A stretch of DNA of 64,000 bases from Tenacibaculum adriaticum. Lineage in GTDB: Bacteria > Bacteroidota > Bacteroidia > Flavobacteriales > Flavobacteriaceae. Shown in pieces: positions 2,545-50,682 of the stretch. The stretch is taken from the NCBI RefSeq assembly GCF_008124875.1, contig NZ_VNIA01000001.1:428943-492942 (forward strand), read 5' to 3'. Positions within the stretch are counted from its first letter, which is position 1. Every line of letters starts with the position of its first letter. The position numbers were made by a program, and so were the translations under genes. The notes under the pieces were generated by a model, which was not told the origin of the DNA, ran no database searches, and saw only the letters and a list, made by a program, of their open reading frames with translations.

Positions 2545-5403
2545 ATGAAACAAACCAACCTACTAAGATTCCTTTTTGTAACGGTTTTTATACTTTTTAA
2601 TATTGTAAAAACCAATGCTCAAAACGGGACAATTCAAGGTATTATAACCGATGAAAACGGAATCTCTATTCCTGGAGCTACTATTTTAATAGAAGAATTA
2701 AAAAAAGGTGCAGTATCAGATTTTGATGGAAAATTCACGATGCTAAATATTCCTGAAGGTACTCATAAATTTTTAATCGAATATTTAGGATATGCAAACC
2801 AAGAACAAGAAGTGACTGTAAAAACATCAGTAACTACAGCTGTAAACATTATATTAAAATCCAAAAGTACAGAGTTGGATGAAGTTGAAATTACTGCTTA
2901 TACCATAGGAGGACAAGCAAGAGCTTTAAATGCTCAAAAAAACAAGCAAAATATTACTAATATCGTTTCTACAGATCAAATAGGAAAATTTCCTGATGCT
3001 AATATTGGAGATGCTGTAAAACGTATTCCTGGAATTACTATGCAAGTAGATCAAGGAGAAGCACGAAATATTGTAATTCGTGGTTTAGCACCTCAATTAA
3101 ATTCTGTTACCTTAAACGGAAGCAGGATACCTTCAGCCGAAGGTGATAACAGAAATGTCCAAATGGATTTAATTCCTTCGGATATGATTCAAACTATTGA
3201 AGTAAATAAAGCAGTAACTCCAGATATGGATGCCGATGCACTTGGTGGTTCTGTAAATTTAATCACAAGAACCTCTCCTCAAGGGTTCCGGTTTTCGGGT
3301 ACTATAGGTTCTGGACTTAATTTTATAACAGACAAACGTATAATTAATGGATCTTTTCTTGTAGGAGACAGAACAAAAGATGATAAATTTGGATGGATGA
3401 TTTCAGCATCTGTAAACGATAACGATTTTGGATCGGATAACGTTGAAGCAGAATGGGAAGATGAATTTGAATACAATGCTTTTGATGATGAAGATAATTT
3501 AGAAGAAGTTGCTGTAAATCCTTATGCTAAAGTAACTGAAATTAGAAAATATCTTGTACAGCGTATTAGACGTAGTTTCTCTGCTAACTTAGACTATAAA
3601 TTCGACGATAATAACTCAATTTATTTAAAAACTATTTATAATTGGAGAGACGATCGTGAAAATAGATTCCGATTAGAACAAGAAATTTTAGATGGTGAAG
3701 ATATTGAAGATGGTGATTTTTCTGTTGATGGAAATGGAAATTTAACCAGTTTTCCTGTTGAAGCTAAAAGACAAACTAAAGGAGGAATTTCAGGAGGAAG
3801 AAATAAAAATGCTCGTTTGGAAGACCAACGTATGCAAAATTACAGTTTTGGAGGTAAACACTTAGCAAACAACTTACAGATAGATTGGATGGCTTCTTAT
3901 GCTAAAGCATCCGAAGAACGTTTAAATGAACGTTATTTAGAATATGAAAGTGAATATGGAATTACATACAACAACAACTCAGATTTTCCTCTTTATACAC
4001 CATTAAGTACAGAGAATGCAGACTATAACCTTTTTGAATTCGGAGAATTAACGGAAGAAAACCAATACACAGAAGAAAAAGATTTCAATACATTTTTGAA
4101 TTTCGAGTTACCATTAAACTTATTTAATAAAGAAAACGGGGTATTAAAATTTGGCTTTCGAGGAAGATTCAAAAACAAAAACAGAAATAATAATTTTACT
4201 GAATATAGTCCTGAAGGAGCAGAATTTGAATTCTTGGGAGGTATTCCCACTCAAAATTATACAGACTCTAATTTTGAACCAGGTAGTCAATATATAATAG
4301 GAGATTTTGGAAGTGCTGAATATCTTGGAAGTTTAAATTTAAACAACACTTCTCTTTTTGAAGGGGAAGATGTTCCGGATGAATATTTAACAGCAAATTT
4401 TGATGTAGACGAAACTGTGTCGGCTGGTTATATAATGACAACTCAAAATATAACTGAAAACTTCAGTGCATTATTTGGAGTACGATTGGAAAACACAAAA
4501 ATAAAAAGTATAGGAAATGAAATTATCTTTGACGAAGATGGCGATTATGAAGCAACAAATGAGGTGAAGGATGAAAATTCTTATACTAACATCTTACCGG
4601 GACTTCATTTAAAATATGATATTTCAAAAAACACCATTTTACGTTTTGCTTGGACCAATACAATTGCAAGACCAAATTATGTAGATCTTGTTCCTTTTAA
4701 AGAAATAAATAATGAAGATGAAGAAATTGTATTAGGAAACTCAGAGTTAGATCCTGCAACATCAATGAATTTTGATATAATGGCGGAACATTATTTTAAA
4801 TCTGTAGGATTAATTTCTGGAGGTGTATTTTATAAAGACATTAAAGATTTTACTTATATTTTTCAATATGAGGATGAGAACGAATACGAAGTGTACCAAC
4901 CTTTTAATGGTGATGATGCTTCTGTACTAGGATTTGAGGTTGCTTTACAACGTCAATTAGATTTCTTACCAGGATTTGCTAAAAACTTTAGCATCTATTT
5001 AAACTATACTCATTTAACATCTGATGCTAATGGTATTAGAAATGAAGATGGTGAAGAACGTACAGATTTAGACCTTCCTAATACAGCTCCAAATATGTTT
5101 AATGCTTCTTTTGGTTATGCAGACAAAAGAATAAATTTACGTTTATCAGGTAATTATTCCGATGCATATTTAGATGAAATTGGTGGACGCCCTTTTGAAG
5201 ACAGGTATTATGATAAACAGTTTTTCTTAGATTTTAACGCAAGCGTAGCATTAAATAAAAACTTGAGTTTATATGCAAGCATCAATAACATTACAAATCA
5301 ACCTTTACGTTATTATCAAGGTGTAAGTAGTAGAACTATGCAAATGGAATATTATCAAAAACGTTTAACTTTTGGTTTAAAATACGACCTGTTCAAAAAA
5401 TAA
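2545..5403 (+). CDS. TonB-dependent outer-membrane receptor with CarboxypepD_reg N-terminal domain
   Basis: This 952-residue protein has a signal peptide (1-25, ending TNAQ), a carboxypeptidase-regulatory-like beta-sandwich domain at about 28-115 (GIITDENGISIPGATI), a plug domain at about 130-245 with the IRGLAPQLNSVTLNGSRIP signature, and a 22-strand-type barrel to the C-terminal aromatic strand (LTFGLKYDLFKK). It imports a large ligand across the outer membrane using TonB-ExbBD energy. The next gene, 3 bp downstream, encodes a phytase, so phytate or an inositol-phosphate product is the likely ligand; that is inference from context. The layout matches the FecA/CirA-like long receptors common in marine flavobacteria, and no lesions are seen. 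Confidence 0.88.
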   Translation: MKQTNLLRFLFVTVFILFNIVKTNAQNGTIQGIITDENGISIPGATILIEELKKGAVSDFDGKFTMLNIPEGTHKFLIEYLGYANQEQEVTVKTSVTTAVNIILKSKSTELDEVEITAYTIGGQARALNAQKNKQNITNIVSTDQIGKFPDANIGDAVKRIPGITMQVDQGEARNIVIRGLAPQLNSVTLNGSRIPSAEGDNRNVQMDLIPSDMIQTIEVNKAVTPDMDADALGGSVNLITRTSPQGFRFSGTIGSGLNFITDKRIINGSFLVGDRTKDDKFGWMISASVNDNDFGSDNVEAEWEDEFEYNAFDDEDNLEEVAVNPYAKVTEIRKYLVQRIRRSFSANLDYKFDDNNSIYLKTIYNWRDDRENRFRLEQEILDGEDIEDGDFSVDGNGNLTSFPVEAKRQTKGGISGGRNKNARLEDQRMQNYSFGGKHLANNLQIDWMASYAKASEERLNERYLEYESEYGITYNNNSDFPLYTPLSTENADYNLFEFGELTEENQYTEEKDFNTFLNFELPLNLFNKENGVLKFGFRGRFKNKNRNNNFTEYSPEGAEFEFLGGIPTQNYTDSNFEPGSQYIIGDFGSAEYLGSLNLNNTSLFEGEDVPDEYLTANFDVDETVSAGYIMTTQNITENFSALFGVRLENTKIKSIGNEIIFDEDGDYEATNEVKDENSYTNILPGLHLKYDISKNTILRFAWTNTIARPNYVDLVPFKEINNEDEEIVLGNSELDPATSMNFDIMAEHYFKSVGLISGGVFYKDIKDFTYIFQYEDENEYEVYQPFNGDDASVLGFEVALQRQLDFLPGFAKNFSIYLNYTHLTSDANGIRNEDGEERTDLDLPNTAPNMFNASFGYADKRINLRLSGNYSDAYLDEIGGRPFEDRYYDKQFFLDFNASVALNKNLSLYASINNITNQPLRYYQGVSSRTMQMEYYQKRLTFGLKYDLFKK

Positions 5404-39490: not shown

Positions 39491-40345
39491 TTATCTATTT
39501 TTTATGATATATATTAATGAAGAATGTTCTTTTGATGCTTTTGCTTTTCTATTCGACATAAAACCATTAATAAATGCATGAATAGGTCTCATCTTTCCTG
39601 TTTTGTATTTTTCTGATAATAAAGAAACATAATACGAATCAAACTTCATTGGTAATACTTTTTCAATTTTCATTTCTACAGTTGAAAATAACTTTCTGAT
39701 TGAAGTTTTAGAGAAATGCCACAGATGTCTGGGTACATCAAATGCGGCCCAAAATTGTTTGTAATGCTTTGCATCATAACTTTTAAAATTTGGAACAGCA
39801 ATTACCAACACACCATCGGGTTTTAATAAACCTTTTAATTGTTGAATATATTCTATTAAATCTGGTACATGTTCTAATACATGCCACATTGTAATAACAT
39901 CAAATTTTTCGTTAATCTCACTAAGATTTTCCTTTACAACTAATTTTTTAGTTATAGATATTTCTCTTGCTTTTTTATTAGGTTCTATTCCCGATACTTT
40001 CCAATTATTTTGTTTACATATTGCTAAAAAATCACCCGTGCCAGAACCAATATCTAAGAGCGTTTTTTCTTTAGAGTTAAATGAATTTAGTAAGTTTAGT
40101 TTTGTCTTTAATGTATAATTACGCACTAATTTATACACTTTATCTATTATAGATTTACTACTATCAGTATGAGAAATATAGTCTTCACTTTTATAATAAT
40201 CACCTAAATTTTTGGGTACAGGTTGTGTAACTAACATATCAAATTCCTTGTTAAATAAAAGTTGATATTCCTCTTTTGAAACTGTATAATCTATAGAATT
40301 TAAAAACGGTTCTAAATTATTATTTATTTTTTCTGTTATATTCAA
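39491..40345 (-). CDS. Class I SAM-dependent methyltransferase
   Basis: This 284-residue protein has the SAM-binding motif I LLDIGSGTGDFLAICKQNNW (about 93-112), motif II VITMWHVLEHVPD and LLKPDGVLVIAVPN. The N-terminal 80 residues (DMLVTQPVPKNLGDYYKSEDYISH) match methyltransferases that often act on lipids or small molecules. The substrate is unknown. Its start codon lies 18 bp from the first parS-like site. Confidence 0.82.
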   Translation of the reverse strand: MNITEKINNNLEPFLNSIDYTVSKEEYQLLFNKEFDMLVTQPVPKNLGDYYKSEDYISHTDSSKSIIDKVYKLVRNYTLKTKLNLLNSFNSKEKTLLDIGSGTGDFLAICKQNNWKVSGIEPNKKAREISITKKLVVKENLSEINEKFDVITMWHVLEHVPDLIEYIQQLKGLLKPDGVLVIAVPNFKSYDAKHYKQFWAAFDVPRHLWHFSKTSIRKLFSTVEMKIEKVLPMKFDSYYVSLLSEKYKTGKMRPIHAFINGFMSNRKAKASKEHSSLIYIIKNR

Positions 40346-40362
40346 TGGTCTATTTGTTATTA

Positions 40363-40378
40363 TGTTCCCCGTGGAACA
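40363..40378. promoter_or_regulatory. parS-like site 1 (TGTTCCCCGTGGAACA)
   Basis: This is the most symmetric outer-arm version (TGTTCC/GGAACA), with the centre CCGT. It lies 18 bp upstream of the methyltransferase start codon and might also affect that gene. Confidence 0.65.
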
Positions 40379-40496
40379 ATGCTATGATTTTGTTTTTTTA
40401 CCTTGATACAATGAATACCAAACGGATTCAAAATTAAATAAAGGTTTTTAATTTATAATTGATTATTTTAATTTTTTAATGAACATTTCTATATAA

Positions 40497-40512
40497 TGTT
40501 CCCCGTGAAACA
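40497..40512. promoter_or_regulatory. parS-like site 2 (TGTTCCCCGTGAAACA)
   Basis: It differs from the majority site only by C for T at position 7 and keeps the canonical right half CGTGAAACA. It lies 134 bp from site 1. Confidence 0.7.
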
Positions 40513-40942
40513 TTTCTTTATTTATATTAATGTGTTGTGATCATTATGCCGAATTTTATTAAATTATTTTAAACTTATTTTTTATTTCTATAATTATAAC
40601 ACTACCTATCCCATTTCTATTTGTTTCTTATTTTTAATTTAGAAATATCTGAATTTATTTATGGAGGATCTTTTATAAATTAATATCATAATTTTATTTA
40701 CCTTATATTAATCTAAAAGAAATGTTTTAATATTTTAACGTATAAATAATTTTTCTTTTACTCATGTTTTTCAATTATCGTCGTGAAATTAGATTTCTAT
40801 TTTAAGATGATTTAATTCTACTATTTCATCCTTATTTAATTGTGATTAATTTTTGTTTCTAAAATAAAATTTGATATTAGTATTGATCGTGATTAATTCT
40901 AGTTTTATTTATAGTCTATAAAATAATTACGTTTATTAATAA

Positions 40943-40958
40943 TGTTCCTCGTGAAACA
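40943..40958. promoter_or_regulatory. parS-like site 3 (TGTTCCTCGTGAAACA)
   Basis: Majority sequence, in the same orientation as the others, 446 bp from site 2. Confidence 0.72.
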
Positions 40959-41236
40959 ATTGCTTTTTCTTTAATTAATTATAATGTTATTGTAGGACTT
41001 ATAAGAATCGTTTATTCTAATAATGATGGTTTTGTTATTTATTTTAAAATTGAATTCAATTATTAAAACCTGATTTAAATTAACTCTTTAGTTAGTTTAT
41101 ATTATTTTTTTATTGATGTTTACGACCTTATGAATGTTAAGTTTTATTTTGTGTCTCATAAAAGAACTTATGAGATAAAAGGAGTTAAACTTTATTGATT
41201 TCAACCTATCTTGGAATTTCATTATTTTTTTAATAA

Positions 41237-41252
41237 TGTTCCTCGTGAAACA
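41237..41252. promoter_or_regulatory. parS-like site 4 (TGTTCCTCGTGAAACA)
   Basis: Majority sequence, 294 bp from site 3, at the 3' side of a heavily decayed VOC-gene remnant. Confidence 0.72.
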
Positions 41253-41264
41253 TCACTCATAATA

Positions 41265-41510
41265 TTTAATTTTTTAGTTTTGATATAATGACATTATTAC
41301 CATTAGGATTTTAATTTAGTTATCTATCTTCTCAAGATAAGCCAGTGTATGATAATTTTTAAAAGGGTGTTTTTAGTTGTTTGTGGTGAATTCTTATTGC
41401 CAACTACTTTTATCATAATATAGATCATCGCCATTATTTTTAATTGTATTGTGTTTTATAATTTAATAACGGTGTTTAATAAAAATATAGATTTTATTTT
41501 TCTATTATTT
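41265..41510 (-). pseudogene. Heavily decayed VOC-family remnant
   Basis: On the minus strand fragments such as EFTTNN and PNGNNVIISKLKN match the aligned positions of the two better-preserved copies (EFTSIN; DPNGYNMIISNFK). Several frameshifts and stops are present. It looks like an older copy of the same gene. Confidence 0.45.
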
Positions 41511-41538
41511 TTGTAGTTTAAATATCGTTTCAATATAA

Positions 41539-41554
41539 TGTTCCTCGTGAAACA
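41539..41554. promoter_or_regulatory. parS-like site 5 (TGTTCCTCGTGAAACA)
   Basis: Majority sequence, 302 bp from site 4. Confidence 0.72.
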
Positions 41555-41827
41555 ATTCTATTATTTTTTATAAAATATGAGTAATAATTATAATTATGTA
41601 TAGCCTAAAAGAGATAATTGTTTATCTTTTTTTATTACCTACTTATTACTTTTTAAGATTAGATTTTGATTAGCTGTTCAACTTTATAATTTTAAATTAG
41701 GGTAGAGTAATTTATTTTTGTTTGAAGTAAAAAAGAAAGGAATCATTAATTTTAAATAGCATTCTATAACTAATCTATTAGAAGTAAAATTAATAATGAT
41801 GTAATTGTTTATTATAATTTAATTAGA

Positions 41828-41843
41828 TGTTCCTCGTGAAACA
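41828..41843. promoter_or_regulatory. parS-like site 6 (TGTTCCTCGTGAAACA)
   Basis: Majority sequence, 289 bp from site 5; it opens the first 411-bp tandem unit. Confidence 0.75.
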
Positions 41844-41852
41844 TTAACTATT

Positions 41853-42227
41853 TTATTTAATTATTTTGAAGTTAGATATAATCATATTGTAACCATTAGG
41901 ATCTTGAATTAGGCATCCATTTCTTTCCAATATAGATTTTTAGGTATGTTGATTTTAATTCCACTCCTATTGATGTTTTTAAAATTAAGTTATACTCACC
42001 TCTTTGTTCTAGATAGAATACTAATATGTCATCATTAAAATTTGAATTAATTTATCCATTTATTGAAGTAAATTCTTGATGTTAATTCAAACCATCTTTA
42101 GCCAAAAGGCACAGTCTTAATTATTATGATTTTGATAATGTCCTTGTATTTAAAAAACTAATATAAACATGTAGAAATTAATTATTGGATGTAGTTTTTC
42201 AGTATGTCTTGCTATTCTATATATTAT
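41853..42227 (-). pseudogene. VOC/glyoxalase-family pseudogene, copy 1
   Basis: This copy aligns over its whole length with copy 2 and shares its stops, including the early TAA after the FYTFILGL-type segment. The start ATG of copy 2 is ATA here. The C-terminal end still reads LIQDPNGYNMIISNFK. Shared lesions show that duplication came after inactivation. Confidence 0.7.
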
Positions 42228-42238
42228 TTTATAAAGAA

Positions 42239-42254
42239 TGTTCCTCGTGAAACA
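42239..42254. promoter_or_regulatory. parS-like site 7 (TGTTCCTCGTGAAACA)
   Basis: Majority sequence, exactly 411 bp from site 6; it opens the second tandem unit. Confidence 0.75.
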
Positions 42255-42263
42255 TTAACTATT

Positions 42264-42638
42264 TTATTTAATTATTTTGAAGTTAGATATAATCATATTG
42301 TAACCATTAGGATCTTGAATTAGGTATCCATTTCTTTCCAATATAGATTTTTAGGTATGTTGATTTTAATTCCACTTCTATTGATGTTTTTAAAATTAAA
42401 TTATACTCTCCTCTTTGTTCTAGATAGAATACTAATATATCATCATTAAAATTTGAATTAATTTATCCATTTATTGAAGTGAATTCTTGATGTTAATTCA
42501 AACCACCTTTAGCCAAAAGGCACGGTCTTAATTGTTATGATTTTGATAATGTCCTTGTATTTATAAACCTAATATAAACGTGTAGAAATTAATTATTAGT
42601 TGTAGTTTTTCAGTATGTTTCGCTACTCTAAAAATCAT
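42264..42638 (-). pseudogene. VOC/glyoxalase-family pseudogene, copy 2
   Basis: From ATG 42638 the minus strand reads MIFRVAKHTEKLQLIINFYT-FILGL then a stop. After further stops and frameshifts it reads HQEFTSING, NSNFNDDILVFYLEQRGEYN and GYLIQDPNGYNMIISNFK before the final stop at 42264-42266. These pieces in order match small (about 125-residue) VOC-superfamily proteins of flavobacteria. The gene is clearly dead. Confidence 0.75.
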
Positions 42639-42649
42639 TTTATAGATAA

Positions 42650-42665
42650 TGTTCCTCGTGAAACA
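42650..42665. promoter_or_regulatory. parS-like site 8 (TGTTCCTCGTGAAACA)
   Basis: Majority sequence, exactly 411 bp from site 7 and 75 bp beyond the mnmG stop codon. Confidence 0.75.
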
Positions 42666-42698
42666 ATAAGTTGAAATTAGTAATAAATGTATAAAAAT

Positions 42699-42728
42699 AA
42701 AAAAGCGTTCCATTTGGAACGCTTTTTT
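42699..42728. terminator. mnmG terminator
   Basis: Arms AAAAAAGCGTTCCA and TGGAACGCTTTTTT with a TT loop lie just after the mnmG stop codon. It shields the parS-like array from mnmG transcription. Confidence 0.88.
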
Positions 42729-42739
42729 ATTTGTTGTTT

Positions 42740-44617
42740 TTATCTACCCATGTAAACCAAGAGCACGGATACATCACTTGGTGATACTCCGCTTATTCTA
42801 CCTGCTTGGGATATGGTTACAGGTTTTATTTTAGATAGTTTCTCTCGTGCTTCAAATGATAATGATTTCACTTTCGAATAATCAAAATTATAAGGTATTG
42901 GTACGTTTTCTAAACGATTCAATTTATCAGCATTACTTTTCTCCTTCTCTATATATCCAGAATATTTTAAGTAAATTTCTACCTGTTCAATAATTTCATT
43001 ATCGATGTTATTCTCTTGAATATAATTTTCTAATTTATCAATAACTCTAAAATCATTAAAGTCTAATTGAGGACGTGCAGCAATCTTAAATAATTTTAAC
43101 GATTGGTTCACCGTAGCTAAATTTTTAGCTTCTAAAATCGGATTTACTTCTTCTTTTTTAACACTTAAATTTTTTATAAAATCAATTAAGTTTTCCGTTT
43201 TTTCTTTCTTTTCAATAACACGATCCATTCTTTCTTTAGATGCTAAACCTATTTCAAAAGATAAAGGTGTTAATCTTAAATCTGCATTATCTTGACGTAA
43301 TAACGTTCTATATTCTGCACGAGAAGTAAACATACGATAGGGTTCTTCTGTACCTTTTGTAATTAAATCATCAATTAAAACACCGATGTAAGCTTCACTC
43401 CTTTTTAAAATAAAAGGTGATCTGTTTTGTACTTTTAAAGCTGCATTTATACCTGCCATTAAACCTTGTGCAGCTGCTTCTTCATAGCCAGTTGTTCCGT
43501 TAATTTGACCAGCAAAGAATAAGTTTTTAATTAATTTCGTTTCTAAAGAATGCGTTAACTGTGTAGGTGGAAAATAATCGTATTCGATAGCGTATCCATA
43601 TCTAAAGAATTTTACGTTTTCAAAACCTGCAATAGATCGTATCGCTTTATCTTGAATATCTTCTGGTAAGGAAGTAGAGAAACCATTTACATAAATTTCT
43701 ACCGTATTCCATCCTTCTGGTTCAACGAAAATTTGATGTCTATCCTTTTCTGCAAAACGATTTATTTTATCTTCTATAGAAGGACAATAGCGAGGTCCTG
43801 TAGATTTAATTCTACCGTTAAACATTGGTGAACGATCAAAACCTTCTTTTAATAAATCGTGTACTTCTTGGCTCGTATAGGTTAAGTAACAAGAACGTTG
43901 TTTTTGTAGTGGTTTGGTTGTTGGTAAATAGGAGAATTTTTCGGGATTATCATCACCAGGTTGCTCTGTCATTTTAGAATAATCCAAAGATCTTCCATCT
44001 ACTCTTGGAGGAGTTCCTGTCTTCATTCTACCCGATTCAAACCCTTTTTCAACTAAATCTTCTGTAATACCAGTTGAAGCTCCTTCACCAGCTCTACCAC
44101 CACCAAAAGTTTTTTCACCAATATGTATTAATCCATTTAAAAAAGTACCAGCAGTAACAATAACAGTTTTAGCTTTTATTTCTAGTCCTAAAGCTGTTTT
44201 TACACCAATTATGGTATCTCCGTCAAAGATTAATCCGTTAACACTGTCTTGAAAAAAGTCTAGATTTTCCGTTTGCTCTAACATAGTTCTCCATGTTTCT
44301 GCAAACTGCATTCTATCAGATTGTGCCCTCGGACTCCACATTGCAGGTCCTTTCGACTTATTTAACATTTTAAATTGAATGGCTGTTTTATCAGTTACAA
44401 TTCCGCTATAACCTCCTAAAGCATCAATTTCGCGAACTATTTGTCCTTTTGCAATTCCTCCCATGGCAGGATTACAACTCATTTGTGCAATGTTTTGCAA
44501 ATTCATTGTAATTAACAATGTTTTTGCACCCATATTTGCACTTCCTGCTGCGGCCTCACTTCCTGCATGACCACCTCCAATAACAATGACGTCGTATGTT
44601 GTTGTAAATAAACTCAT
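42740..44617 (-). CDS. mnmG: tRNA uridine-5-carboxymethylaminomethyl(34) synthesis enzyme MnmG
   Basis: This 625-residue protein has the FAD-binding motif VIGGGHAGSEAAAGSANMG at about 12-30, the GidA signatures GGIAKGQIVREIDALGG and FAGQINGTTGYEEAAAQGLMAGINA, and the C-terminal helical domain (SGYIEKEKSNADKLNRLEN; GRISGVSPSDVSVLLVYMGR). With MnmE it modifies the wobble uridine of several tRNAs. The gene is often next to the replication origin. Here its 3' end faces the parS-like array; ybeY is 48 bp upstream on the same strand. Confidence 0.96.
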   Translation of the reverse strand: MSLFTTTYDVIVIGGGHAGSEAAAGSANMGAKTLLITMNLQNIAQMSCNPAMGGIAKGQIVREIDALGGYSGIVTDKTAIQFKMLNKSKGPAMWSPRAQSDRMQFAETWRTMLEQTENLDFFQDSVNGLIFDGDTIIGVKTALGLEIKAKTVIVTAGTFLNGLIHIGEKTFGGGRAGEGASTGITEDLVEKGFESGRMKTGTPPRVDGRSLDYSKMTEQPGDDNPEKFSYLPTTKPLQKQRSCYLTYTSQEVHDLLKEGFDRSPMFNGRIKSTGPRYCPSIEDKINRFAEKDRHQIFVEPEGWNTVEIYVNGFSTSLPEDIQDKAIRSIAGFENVKFFRYGYAIEYDYFPPTQLTHSLETKLIKNLFFAGQINGTTGYEEAAAQGLMAGINAALKVQNRSPFILKRSEAYIGVLIDDLITKGTEEPYRMFTSRAEYRTLLRQDNADLRLTPLSFEIGLASKERMDRVIEKKEKTENLIDFIKNLSVKKEEVNPILEAKNLATVNQSLKLFKIAARPQLDFNDFRVIDKLENYIQENNIDNEIIEQVEIYLKYSGYIEKEKSNADKLNRLENVPIPYNFDYSKVKSLSFEAREKLSKIKPVTISQAGRISGVSPSDVSVLLVYMGR

Positions 44618-44665
44618 ATTTTTACAGTTTCATTCGAAACTTTAATTTTTTTAATTAACTGGTAA

Positions 44666-45081: not shown

Positions 45082-48000
45082 TTAATTTTTATCCTGATCA
45101 GGAATACTAAAATATTCCTGAACTTTCTTTTTATAATTTTGGCGCAAAGGTAAGGATTGTCGGTTTAATATTTCTGTTTGATTGTAAAACAACTTCTTAA
45201 ATTCTAATTGTTTAGCATTATTTTTATTGTATTCAATTAAATTGGAGTTTGCTTTGCGTTGTTTATCACGACCTTGCTCAAAAGTAGCCTTGTCTAATTT
45301 TAACAATTCGTAGTTAAGTTTTTGCATTTTGTTTAAAGCGCCTTGTGTAAAACCTTTCTCCAGAATTTCATTCTCCAATTCCTCCATTTCTTTCAATGCT
45401 TTCTTTGCTTTACCATTTCCAGAACCACCTTCTTTTATTGCGTCTTCAAGTTGCTGACGTAGTTCAGATTGTTCTTTATAAATCTGATATAGTTCACCAT
45501 TCATTTCTTCATTTTCTCCACCATTTCCTTGTTTTTCACCCTTACCTTCCTTACTACCTTTTCCCTCTTTCCCTTCTCCATCTTTAGGTTTTCCTTCATT
45601 TCCTTTCTTCTGCATTCCTTCTTTCATTTTTTGCATCAATTCACTTTGTTTTTGAATGATGTCTGGTAAACTAAAAGATTCTCCTTTTCCCTTTCCTTTT
45701 CCGCTACCAGGTTTGGCGTTTTTCATTGCGTCTAAGGTATTACTTAACATATTAGCTAATTCGTTCGCAGAAGTCATAATATAGCGTTGGTTAGAAACAC
45801 CATTATTAAACCTGCTTTCCGCAAAATTTTCTAAAGATTGGTCTAAATTATAGTGTGCATTTCCTAAATGTTCTTGTATTTCAGAAGAAATTCTAGGCAC
45901 ACGCATCGATAAAACAAACAAACTATCATCTATATGTTCAAAATAAGTTTTAAGTTGAAATTGTTTTTTTAAGTTTTTACCAAAATCTGGATGCGAAGAA
46001 GATGAATCTGTAAATTCGTTCATTAATGCTTCTTGATCAAATGAAAAAGTAATTAGATTTTCTAGTATTTGACGTAAATCTTCTTCATTTTCTTCTTGCA
46101 TTTCATCACTCATCATTTCCATAGATTTCTCCATCTTAGCACTCATTTGTTTCATTTTATCAGCAGCTTTTTGCTGATTTTTATTTGCGTCTTTTGGCTT
46201 ATTTTGTTTTAAATTTTCTTCAGCTTTATTTAATTCCTGTTCAGTTTCTTTTTGTAATTCTTCCATCTTTGGAATATCCATTGGGTCTTTAAGCTTTTCA
46301 TTGTCTTTTTGCAATTCCTTCATTTGCTCCTGAACTTTTTGAAACTCTTTTTTAACCGCTTCTTGCTCTTCTTTATCCGCATCTTTATTAGCCAAATTTT
46401 CTTGTTTTTTGGCCAATTCTTTTAATTCGTTTGCTAGTTGTGTGGTTTTTTGTTCCACATAAAACCTTTTGGTCATTTCTAATACACGCTCTAAACTACG
46501 CTCTTGTTGTTTGTTTTGTTGCGCTAGCTCTTTGGTTTTCTTTATCAACTCTTCTTTATTGAGTTTTTCTGCCATTTTCATGAGCTCGTCTAACAACTTT
46601 TGTTGTTTTTCTAATTTTTTAAGCTCCTCTATTCGTTTTTTTAAATCTTCTTTTTTCTGTTGTAAATCCTCAGTTTCTTCTTTTTTTTCTGAAAAATTTT
46701 CTTGCAACTTATCGGTTTGACGTTGCATCATTTGTTTATATTGTTGCTGTCGCTTAATTAAATTCTGAACTTTCTTTTGATCGTTCCAATTCATGTTCTT
46801 TTTGTTCTGTAAATCGAACTGAATTTTCTCTAGATCTTGTTTGCTTTTTTGTTGCTTTTCTAACGAGTTTTCTAAGTTGTTAATATGATCTCGTTGCTCT
46901 TGTAATAACTCTTGTTCTATTTCTTGTGTTGTTTTTTGTCGGTATGAGAACTTTTTACTCGTTGTTTTTTTATTTCCGTTAATGGCATCATTGTCAAAAA
47001 CTTGAAAGAACATTTCATAATTAATACCTTCTTGTAAATTTAAACCATCAGGAAATTGATAAAAAAACGTTTGAATATTCTCTTTTCCTATAGTAATCTC
47101 TTTGGTTTGTTGCGACTGCGGATTTTGAGCATTGTAATACACCAACTGTAATTTTTTAAATCCGTAATCATCAGATATCTGACCCGCAAACATGGCAGGT
47201 CCACGTGAAACACTATCAATATTCGATTGCACAGAAATAATTGGATATTCATCTTTTACCACATTAACTGAAAATTGTAATTGCTCGTAATCTTGTAACT
47301 TTTCGTTTGAAGTTGTAATTTGGTAATTAATGTTCTTTAAAATTCGTTTCGAAAACACAAAAAGATCCGTTTCGTTTTGTTTAAAATCGGTACGAGTTTC
47401 TTCGTTAATAAAAGTAACCGTATTACTTTGAGATGTTTTTACATTCCACTCTATGGTGGTTCCTTGCGGAAGGGTAATATTACTTGTATTCGGAATCGTT
47501 TCGTTTTGTTTTCCTAAATATCTCGGATACAACAACCGCATCGAAACGTTTTGTATGGTGGGAGTTTTAATAATATTTATATGATAATCTACAGACTGAA
47601 TTCCGTTTGCTTCTGCATAAAAATCAATGGGTTGGTTTACTTCTGAAAATGTATAGGAAAACAATCCTACTCCGTTATTTTCTAGATAATATTGCTGATT
47701 ATCGTAAAAAATTTTCGCTTCTTGCGGAATTACTTCTCCTTTCGCTTCTACATAAATTGTTAAGGGTTTTCCTTGTATAACCTGTAAATTATTGTTGGTT
47801 AATGAAAGTGTAAAAGGAGCTGGTGGTGCGTAAGCAATACGGTGATTTACAACACGTTCTAAACTTTGATTTAATTTAGTGTTAGCGCCTGTAAATAAGG
47901 TTATTAACCAAATTATAATAGGAATTAAAGCGAATTTTAAGTATTTAGTATTGTTGTTAAAATCAACTGCTTTGGTAAAAGGGACAGGTTGTAGTTCGTT

Positions 48001-50315: not shown

Positions 50316-50682
50316 CTTAACTTTTTTTTTAGTTCAGTAATAGATTTGTAACCTAAATCTTCAGCAGCTACTTCCAGGTAAGCATCCAACACCATGGCAT
50401 CTAGATCCTTTTTAAGTAATAGTTTTTTAAGCTGTTCAATCTCTTTTTGAAGCGCTTTGATTCTAGATATCTAGATATTTCGTCTTTAGTTTCCACCTTA
50501 ATTCTGGTGTTCATTAAGTCTTTCCGATTGTACTTTTTAATCCATTCGTTAACTGTTGTTGGAGCAATAGAATAGAGTTTACAAAGTTCACTCTTAGTGT
50601 GTTTTCCGATTGTAAGTTGGTCTAAAATCTTTAATTTAAAAGGTTCGTTGTAACGTCTAATTACTTTGTCATTTTTGTACAT
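50316..50682 (-). pseudogene. IS3-family transposase orfA, frameshifted
   Basis: It opens with a helix-turn-helix (PFKLKILDQLTIGKHTKSEL; YSIAPTTVNEWIKKYNRKDL). An 8-bp tandem duplication (CTAGATAT twice at 50463-50478) shifts the frame after ETKDEISR, so the leucine-zipper half is read wrongly. The remaining sequence still encodes the expected LLLKKDLDAMVLDAY in another frame. Confidence 0.8.

Follow-up and report, generated by a model that had tools for sequence, protein, structure and literature searches.

The closest described systems are the consensus parS sites of ParABS, the clustered parS sites of Caulobacter and the half-parS sites of Pseudomonas aeruginosa. Consensus parS is a 16-bp near-palindrome, proximal to ori, in genomes that encode ParA and a CTPase-type ParB. 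In Caulobacter, according to the available text of PMC5815017, several sites of graded affinity are clustered near ori, strong and weak together; one half, GTGAAA, is common to all and the other is degenerate. P. aeruginosa ParB binds scattered half-parS sequences, GTTTCAC/GTTCCAC, and binding of this kind is weak in Caulobacter and was not seen with the ParB of B. subtilis, as given in the available part of PMC10419367. Among the literature matches listed, which come from a coverage that most subscription journals lie outside, none was found to deal with mnmG-adjacent parS in Bacteroidota or with a conserved half-defective parS.

The window, by which we mean the whole 64,000-nucleotide stretch of Tenacibaculum adriaticum DNA that was analysed, contains eight 16-mers inside 2.4 kb, all on the plus strand, which were located by a pattern scan (Table 1). 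Their spacings in order are 134, 446, 294, 302, 289, 411 and 411 bp, the GC content of the inter-site spacers is 17-23%, and the longest ORF in the interval between the methyltransferase-like ORF and mnmG is 50 aa. Site 8 occupies the place where relatives have their single downstream site. At ≤3 mismatches the window yields 10 matches, compared with a mean of 0.54 and a maximum of 3 in 100 shuffles; the two matches besides the eight are site 1 read in reverse and a 3-mismatch match at 47197 within a long ORF. Across the genome (3.21 Mb, 21 contigs), exact TGTTCCYCGTGRAACA occurs eight times, every one in the array. At ≤2 mismatches to TGTTCCYCGTGRAACA, site 1 matches again in its reverse reading, and three further matches, each with 2 mismatches, are scattered over other contigs; a scan for GTTYCNCGTGRAAC returned only those eight array sites. 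An earlier note on this DNA had described eight co-oriented sites with these sequences and spacings, in gene-free DNA, as a dense cluster, and had proposed a whole-genome motif search: the rescan bears out the description, the exact copies are confined to the array rather than scattered evenly, and the array is the sole cluster found, no second one having turned up in the genome-wide pattern scans. An Rfam search over the array interval gave nothing at or above gathering score; five weaker matches, the strongest with E 0.011, were confined to the mnmG terminator end. Elsewhere in the window, a short transposase-like HTH ORF at 50401-50682, with Pfam matches slightly under cut-off, is a possible insertion-sequence remnant.

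Table 1. Features of the array and its flanks, in window coordinates.
Feature	Coordinates	Strand	Sequence	Remarks
Methyltransferase-like ORF	39491..40345	-		UbiG-like, under curated cut-off; site 1 just upstream
Site 1	40363..40378	+	TGTTCCCCGTGGAACA	17 bp upstream of methyltransferase ORF
Site 2	40497..40512	+	TGTTCCCCGTGAAACA	
Site 3	40943..40958	+	TGTTCCTCGTGAAACA	
Site 4	41237..41252	+	TGTTCCTCGTGAAACA	
Site 5	41539..41554	+	TGTTCCTCGTGAAACA	
Site 6	41828..41843	+	TGTTCCTCGTGAAACA	
Site 7	42239..42254	+	TGTTCCTCGTGAAACA	
Site 8	42650..42665	+	TGTTCCTCGTGAAACA	Closest to mnmG, 78 bp beyond its last codon
Two 411-bp tandem units	41827..42648	+		Each starts with a site
mnmG terminator-like hairpin and T run	42695..42732	-		Stem GTTCC/GGAAC resembles a parS relic
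mnmG (gidA)	42740..44617	-		625 aa; TIGR00136, 857.7 bits
Decayed upstream parS place	44626..44641	-	AGTTTCGAATGAAACT	3 core mismatches

Seven of the eight sites differ from the parS consensus TGTTTCACGTGAAACA at two positions (5 and 7), and site 1 differs at three, so that seven lie within the 2-mismatch rule for parS calls found in the available text of PMC10197239. A perfect CACGTG core in both halves occurs in none of the eight, and a genome-wide scan for the exact canonical-core 14-mer GTTYCACGTGRAAC found no copy in the window genome. Absence of CACGTG was not treated as exclusive of parS because Caulobacter has degenerate native sites. The array shares with consensus parS its 16-bp near-palindromic form, its proximity to ori and the presence of ParA and a CTPase-type ParB in the genome, but differs in that no exact canonical-core site was found and each array site has one defective half. 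It resembles the Caulobacter cluster, as far as the available text describes it, in having several clustered sites near ori with one half conserved and the other degenerate, whereas only half-defective sites, partly in tandem, were found in the window. The intact half of the array sites is the GTTTCAC reported for P. aeruginosa (GTTCCAC in site 1); the half-parS sites in the available account are scattered, whereas those of the array are clustered and their other half is also preserved but for position 7. Multi-site arrays adjoining mnmG were also seen in three Flavobacterium records, L039 (4812-5938), L041 (5624-5941) and L045 (5525-5883), with six to ten parS-like sites at ≤1 mismatch; unlike the window array, these lie upstream of mnmG, have mostly canonical cores (CACATG in 4/10 in L039) and have sites mostly 40-120 bp apart.

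GC skew on contig C1 was followed over 963 kb of its 1,153 kb (45 stretches plus the window). The cumulative minimum lies near 485 kb, and a two-segment fit places the break at 487.9 kb, with mean skew of -0.050 before and +0.059 after; the bootstrap 5-95% interval of the break is wide, 331-567 kb. The array, at 469.3-471.6 kb, is about 17 kb from the best-fit break, in keeping with the previously claimed position near the origin, for which a GC-skew check had been suggested, though the interval is wide. DnaA boxes (TTATCCACA, ≤1 mismatch) number 25 in the window, where the chance mean is 20, and none falls inside the array, by which test the array was rejected as oriC. The skew and DnaA-box analysis of the window genome did not locate oriC itself.

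A single ParB_N match was found in the window genome, and this parB adjoins, on contig C7, a ParA-like ORF recognised by its Walker motif alone. The cognate ParB contains the GERRFR (CTP) box and conserved parS-reading residues. ParB sequences were sought at 60 loci, of which 55 were aligned (30 from the genus, being the best 30 of the matches, and 25 from the outgroup); five outgroup loci were dropped when the motif filter found no frame. The recognition helix KKRSTVTNYLRLL is identical in 30/30 aligned genus ParBs; most of the 25 outgroup proteins show only small departures from it, and four of the 25 have KDRSTITNSIRLL. Genus-fixed changes in ParB fall outside the helix (e.g. residues 105 and 107), and a specificity switch, looked for in the 55 aligned ParBs, was not found. 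In the available text of PMC7383237, a lysine at residue 179 or 184 is permissive, the variant RTKG is promiscuous, and residue 201 is linked to the base at position 6 in that paper's numbering. Counted from the conserved arginine, the window ParB has R, Y, K and G at the Caulobacter places 173, 179, 184 and 201. Comparing parS with NBS, we equate position 6 of that numbering with position 7 of the 16-mer. With the link between residue 201 and position 7 and the permissive lysine, the defect of the window sites falls, in one half, at the base separating parS from NBS. The permissive lysine is also present in many outgroups, so it would permit the genus pattern and does not explain it.

The arrangement around mnmG outside the genus was examined in the best 80 of at least 590 mnmG loci minus L006-L011 (genus members or near kin), which left 74 loci, mostly from Flavobacteriaceae with some further Bacteroidota, their genus membership not being checked singly. 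On this basis, GTTYCACGTGRAAC lies ≤200 bp upstream of mnmG in 68/74 outgroup loci (the full 16-mer in 57), and a parS-armed site, GTTYCNNNNGRAAC, lies ≤300 bp downstream in 67/74. Both core halves are intact in 69 of the 72 outgroup downstream sites, both are broken in two and one is broken in one; all 41 with full TGTT..AACA ends have an intact core. The order parS - mnmG - parS is the likely ancestral arrangement. L022 and L043 come from records titled Limnohabitans and Chitinophaga, in which mnmG is 75% identical to that of the window; these are possibly misnamed or mixed MAGs. In the Tenacibaculum records L006, L007 and L008, TGTTCCTTGTGGAACA occurs about 2.9 kb upstream of mnmG (at 3104, 3085 and 3125, respectively), presumably inside a long DUF4175 gene; it is absent from the window.

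Within the Tenacibaculum/Polaribacter genus, mnmG flanks were read in 151/166 genomes (that of the window plus 90 and 60 relatives). Flanks were not counted for G030, G100, G105, G114, G175, G176 and G181, which gave no mnmG match; G039, G127, G179, G187 and G188, with partial matches only, and G165, G183 and G190, with full matches, were left out. Upstream of mnmG, the exact 14-mer is retained in 141/151 genomes, but just 12 of these have it flanked by the outer T..A pair; restriction avoidance of CACGTG was rejected on the ground that this upstream site retains it. Downstream, 137 full-ended sites (TGTTYCNNNNGRAACA) lie ≤300 bp from mnmG in 124 genomes, and in every one of them a single core half is broken, with no case of an intact core or of two broken halves. 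Over 5 kb downstream, 165 sites have one half broken and one has both, the cores being TCGT (73), ACGA (30), ATGT (23), ACAT (13), ACAA (8), CCGT (8), TTGT (8) and ACGG (2). The exceptions to this rule are seven further downstream sites with an intact core in which the T..A end pair is missing, five of them ≤300 bp downstream (G111, G119, G129, G199 and G200). By these counts the change in the genus is in the downstream site, one half of which is defective in every full-ended copy ≤300 bp from mnmG, whereas the full-ended downstream sites of the outgroup are intact.

The broken half may be the left or the right, by T, by C or by a neighbouring change. Mapped by parsimony onto a FastTree tree of mnmG proteins (a single gene, hence an approximate count), the broken side of the first site switches 23 times or more, compared with a mean of 36.6 and a minimum of 30 for shuffled side labels, and flips are seen at like places with alignable flanks, as between G109 and G054 (flanks 73% identical). 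A small inversion of the core, produced if the template is switched from one arm to the other, could reverse the broken side in a single event. Full-ended, non-terminator downstream sites number 0 in 23 genomes (six ParB-less ones included), 1 in 102, 2 in 22, 3 in two, 5 in one (G003) and 8 in the window genome alone, the most among the 151; the counts are lower bounds where sequence stops <5 kb downstream (e.g. after 300 bases in G134 and 777 in G133). Either orientation occurs in the relatives. These comparisons divide the remaining claims of the earlier note. Its lineage-specific parS was half right: the recognition sequence is unchanged, judged by the ParB helix and the upstream cores, and the downstream site is altered. 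The systematic left-half change does not extend across the genus, where either half is affected by varied bases; common to the sites is a defect in one half and one only. The alignment of related genomes that it proposed finds the downstream site to be common and the eight-site density to be specific to the window genome. Hairpins after mnmG with a parS-like stem (CGTTCCATGTGGAACG or TGTTCCATGTGGAACG, plus a T run) were observed in the window (Table 1), G017, G022 and G113, and look like parS sites converted to terminators.

ParB was sought in all 166 genus genomes, 128 of which are ≥90% complete and ≤5% contaminated. It is present in 122/128 of these good genomes and absent from G008, G018, G139, G140, G142 and G152; TIGR00180 gave no ParB in G008 and G018, the two of the six tested with it, nor in the incomplete G057 and G127. 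The exact canonical 14-mer is retained by 118/122 good genomes with ParB and absent from 10/128, namely the six ParB-less genomes together with G000, G175, G176 and G184; G175 and G176 have no mnmG in the assembly, and the upstream site of G184 has an intact core with one arm mismatch. Among the 151 genomes with flanks read, all that have ParB also yielded an intact-core site, except that of the window. A parS-armed site ≤300 bp downstream (terminator-type arms counted in) is present in 0/6 of the ParB-less genomes versus 144/145 of the others, and the upstream place in the six has one mismatch (G008) or three. The six form one clade (support 0.984), so that the co-loss is one event, an origin that the Fisher value of 4e-8 for ParB/site co-loss ignores. 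Presence of the site thus follows ParB, with three incomplete genomes as exceptions, G057 (82%), G165 (70%) and G127 (59%), in which ParB was undetected yet the 14-mer is kept, perhaps because contigs are missing. G172 has ParB, no site at mnmG and three 14-mers elsewhere. The loci of the ParB-less clade are L152 (G008), L142 (G018), L342 (G139), L341 (G140), L345 (G142) and L338 (G152), in genomes of 2.6-2.9 Mb.

Sites 6-8 bound two 411-bp units whose first 300 nt are 97% identical and whose spacers match at 370/390 bases. When spacers were compared without the sites, homology was limited to spacers 1, 2 and 4; self-BLAST with the sites included recovered more decayed duplicates and was used, giving older duplicates around other sites that are 73-84% alike over 50-118 nt. 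The array evidently grew at least partly by tandem duplication, from which the co-orientation of the eight sites would follow. Six sites are identical at 16/16 positions while the youngest spacer pair differs at 20/390 bases, which speaks for constraint on the sites. G106, the sister of the window genome (support 0.924), has a site with reversed core upstream of the methyltransferase at the place aligned with site 1, and fills the same interval with mnmG 3'-end fragments, which implies that the interval duplicates readily. Tandem decayed mnmG 3' ends were also noted downstream of mnmG at L127 (G002), L119 (G106) and L177 (G040), the copies in G002 and G106 including the parS-like terminator; duplication in this interval has thus recurred, with units that differ. 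Derivation of the window spacers from decayed mnmG 3' ends was rejected; none scores above 100 shuffles, and no such fragment was listed in the window genome. G003, G012, G106 and G197 have several sites and retain the canonical upstream site, so arrays also grow without its loss, and compensation rests on one case.

Other explanations of the sites were weighed against these results. Of the full-ended downstream cores in the genus, TCGT/ACGA is found most often (103/165), and the window has it six times, as would be expected had the ParB of this lineage switched its recognition sequence to TGTTCCYCGTGRAACA; we consider such a switch quite unlikely, since the 30 best genus ParBs aligned share one helix, from which most of the 25 outgroup proteins depart little, the genus-fixed changes lie away from it, the canonical core persists upstream of mnmG, and the broken half varies and is broken by different bases. 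The clear tandem duplicates, and the ready duplication of the same interval in G106, could also belong to a parS-derived satellite that expands passively and has no present role, but the spacers decay while the sites stay identical, and an intact ParB occurs in a genome devoid of the exact canonical-core 14-mer, which makes a passive repeat very unlikely.

The sites might also act in RNA, forming hairpins or terminators at the 3' end of mnmG. Tenacibaculum relatives do have a parS-armed hairpin, CGTTCCATGTGGAACG, with a T run beside the site, at a place like that of the window terminator, and almost every copy of the site in relatives has fully complementary arms (C at 5 in 96% and G at 12 in 100%, n=157). 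In the window, however, the terminator is separate from the sites, seven of which have C at 5 opposite A at 12, so that the arms are not fully paired and these seven lack the fully paired stem with T run of an intrinsic terminator. An RNA loop, moreover, gives no reason for AC or GT to be intact in exactly one half, and the two ParB-less genomes in which the 3' flank was inspected keep the terminator without the site; a role in RNA is accordingly extremely improbable. Use of the sites by some other DNA-binding protein, such as one that regulates mnmG, would suit the fact that both sites adjoin mnmG in most genomes, and is hardly credible given the match to parS and the co-loss with ParB.

That the array sites are of parS type is well supported: canonical parS-type sites flank mnmG on both sides in other Bacteroidota, mostly Flavobacteriaceae, the skew break lies nearby, if with a wide interval, and in one clade of the genus the downstream site is missing along with ParB. 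The parS-like character first proposed for them stands. Very probably, the eight sites are a chromosomal parS centromere at which ParB is predicted to load, each with one half intact and the other defective, multiplied where relatives have one site just downstream of mnmG. In the best reading of the available tests, the array would be of centromere type and the system an ordinary ParABS in an unusual state, with many half-defective sites replacing one intact-core site. The upstream canonical-core site of the window genome has evidently decayed and the downstream site multiplied to eight. ParB would load as a CTP clamp through the intact half and a tolerated position-7 mismatch in the other, and loaded ParB would slide into the AT-rich spacers; eight weak loading sites may jointly replace one strong site, with ParA then separating the ori regions. 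It is our guess that low site strength is made up for by copy number. For the persistent half-defect, our preferred idea is the tuning of loading strength near a stronger site. Taken together, we tentatively propose, at somewhat short of even likelihood, that selection in the genus keeps the downstream parS exactly half-defective, in either half, as a tuned weak loader beside a stronger site, and that the window genome has lost the stronger site and now relies for its whole centromere on eight half-defective ones, centromere strength being set by copy number.

The expansion of the bacterial centromere region, and its driver, is named an interesting question in the available text of PMC5815017. 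What appears to be new here is not a new recognition sequence but an unexpectedly strict half-defective state of parS. A scan held strictly to the consensus may overlook an entire centromere: searching the window genome for the exact canonical core returned no site. One genus provides a natural series of canonical-core sites, half-defective sites, arrays of one to eight and a ParB-less clade without the downstream site, and this series suits asking whether ParB can load without two intact halves and whether number can stand in for strength.
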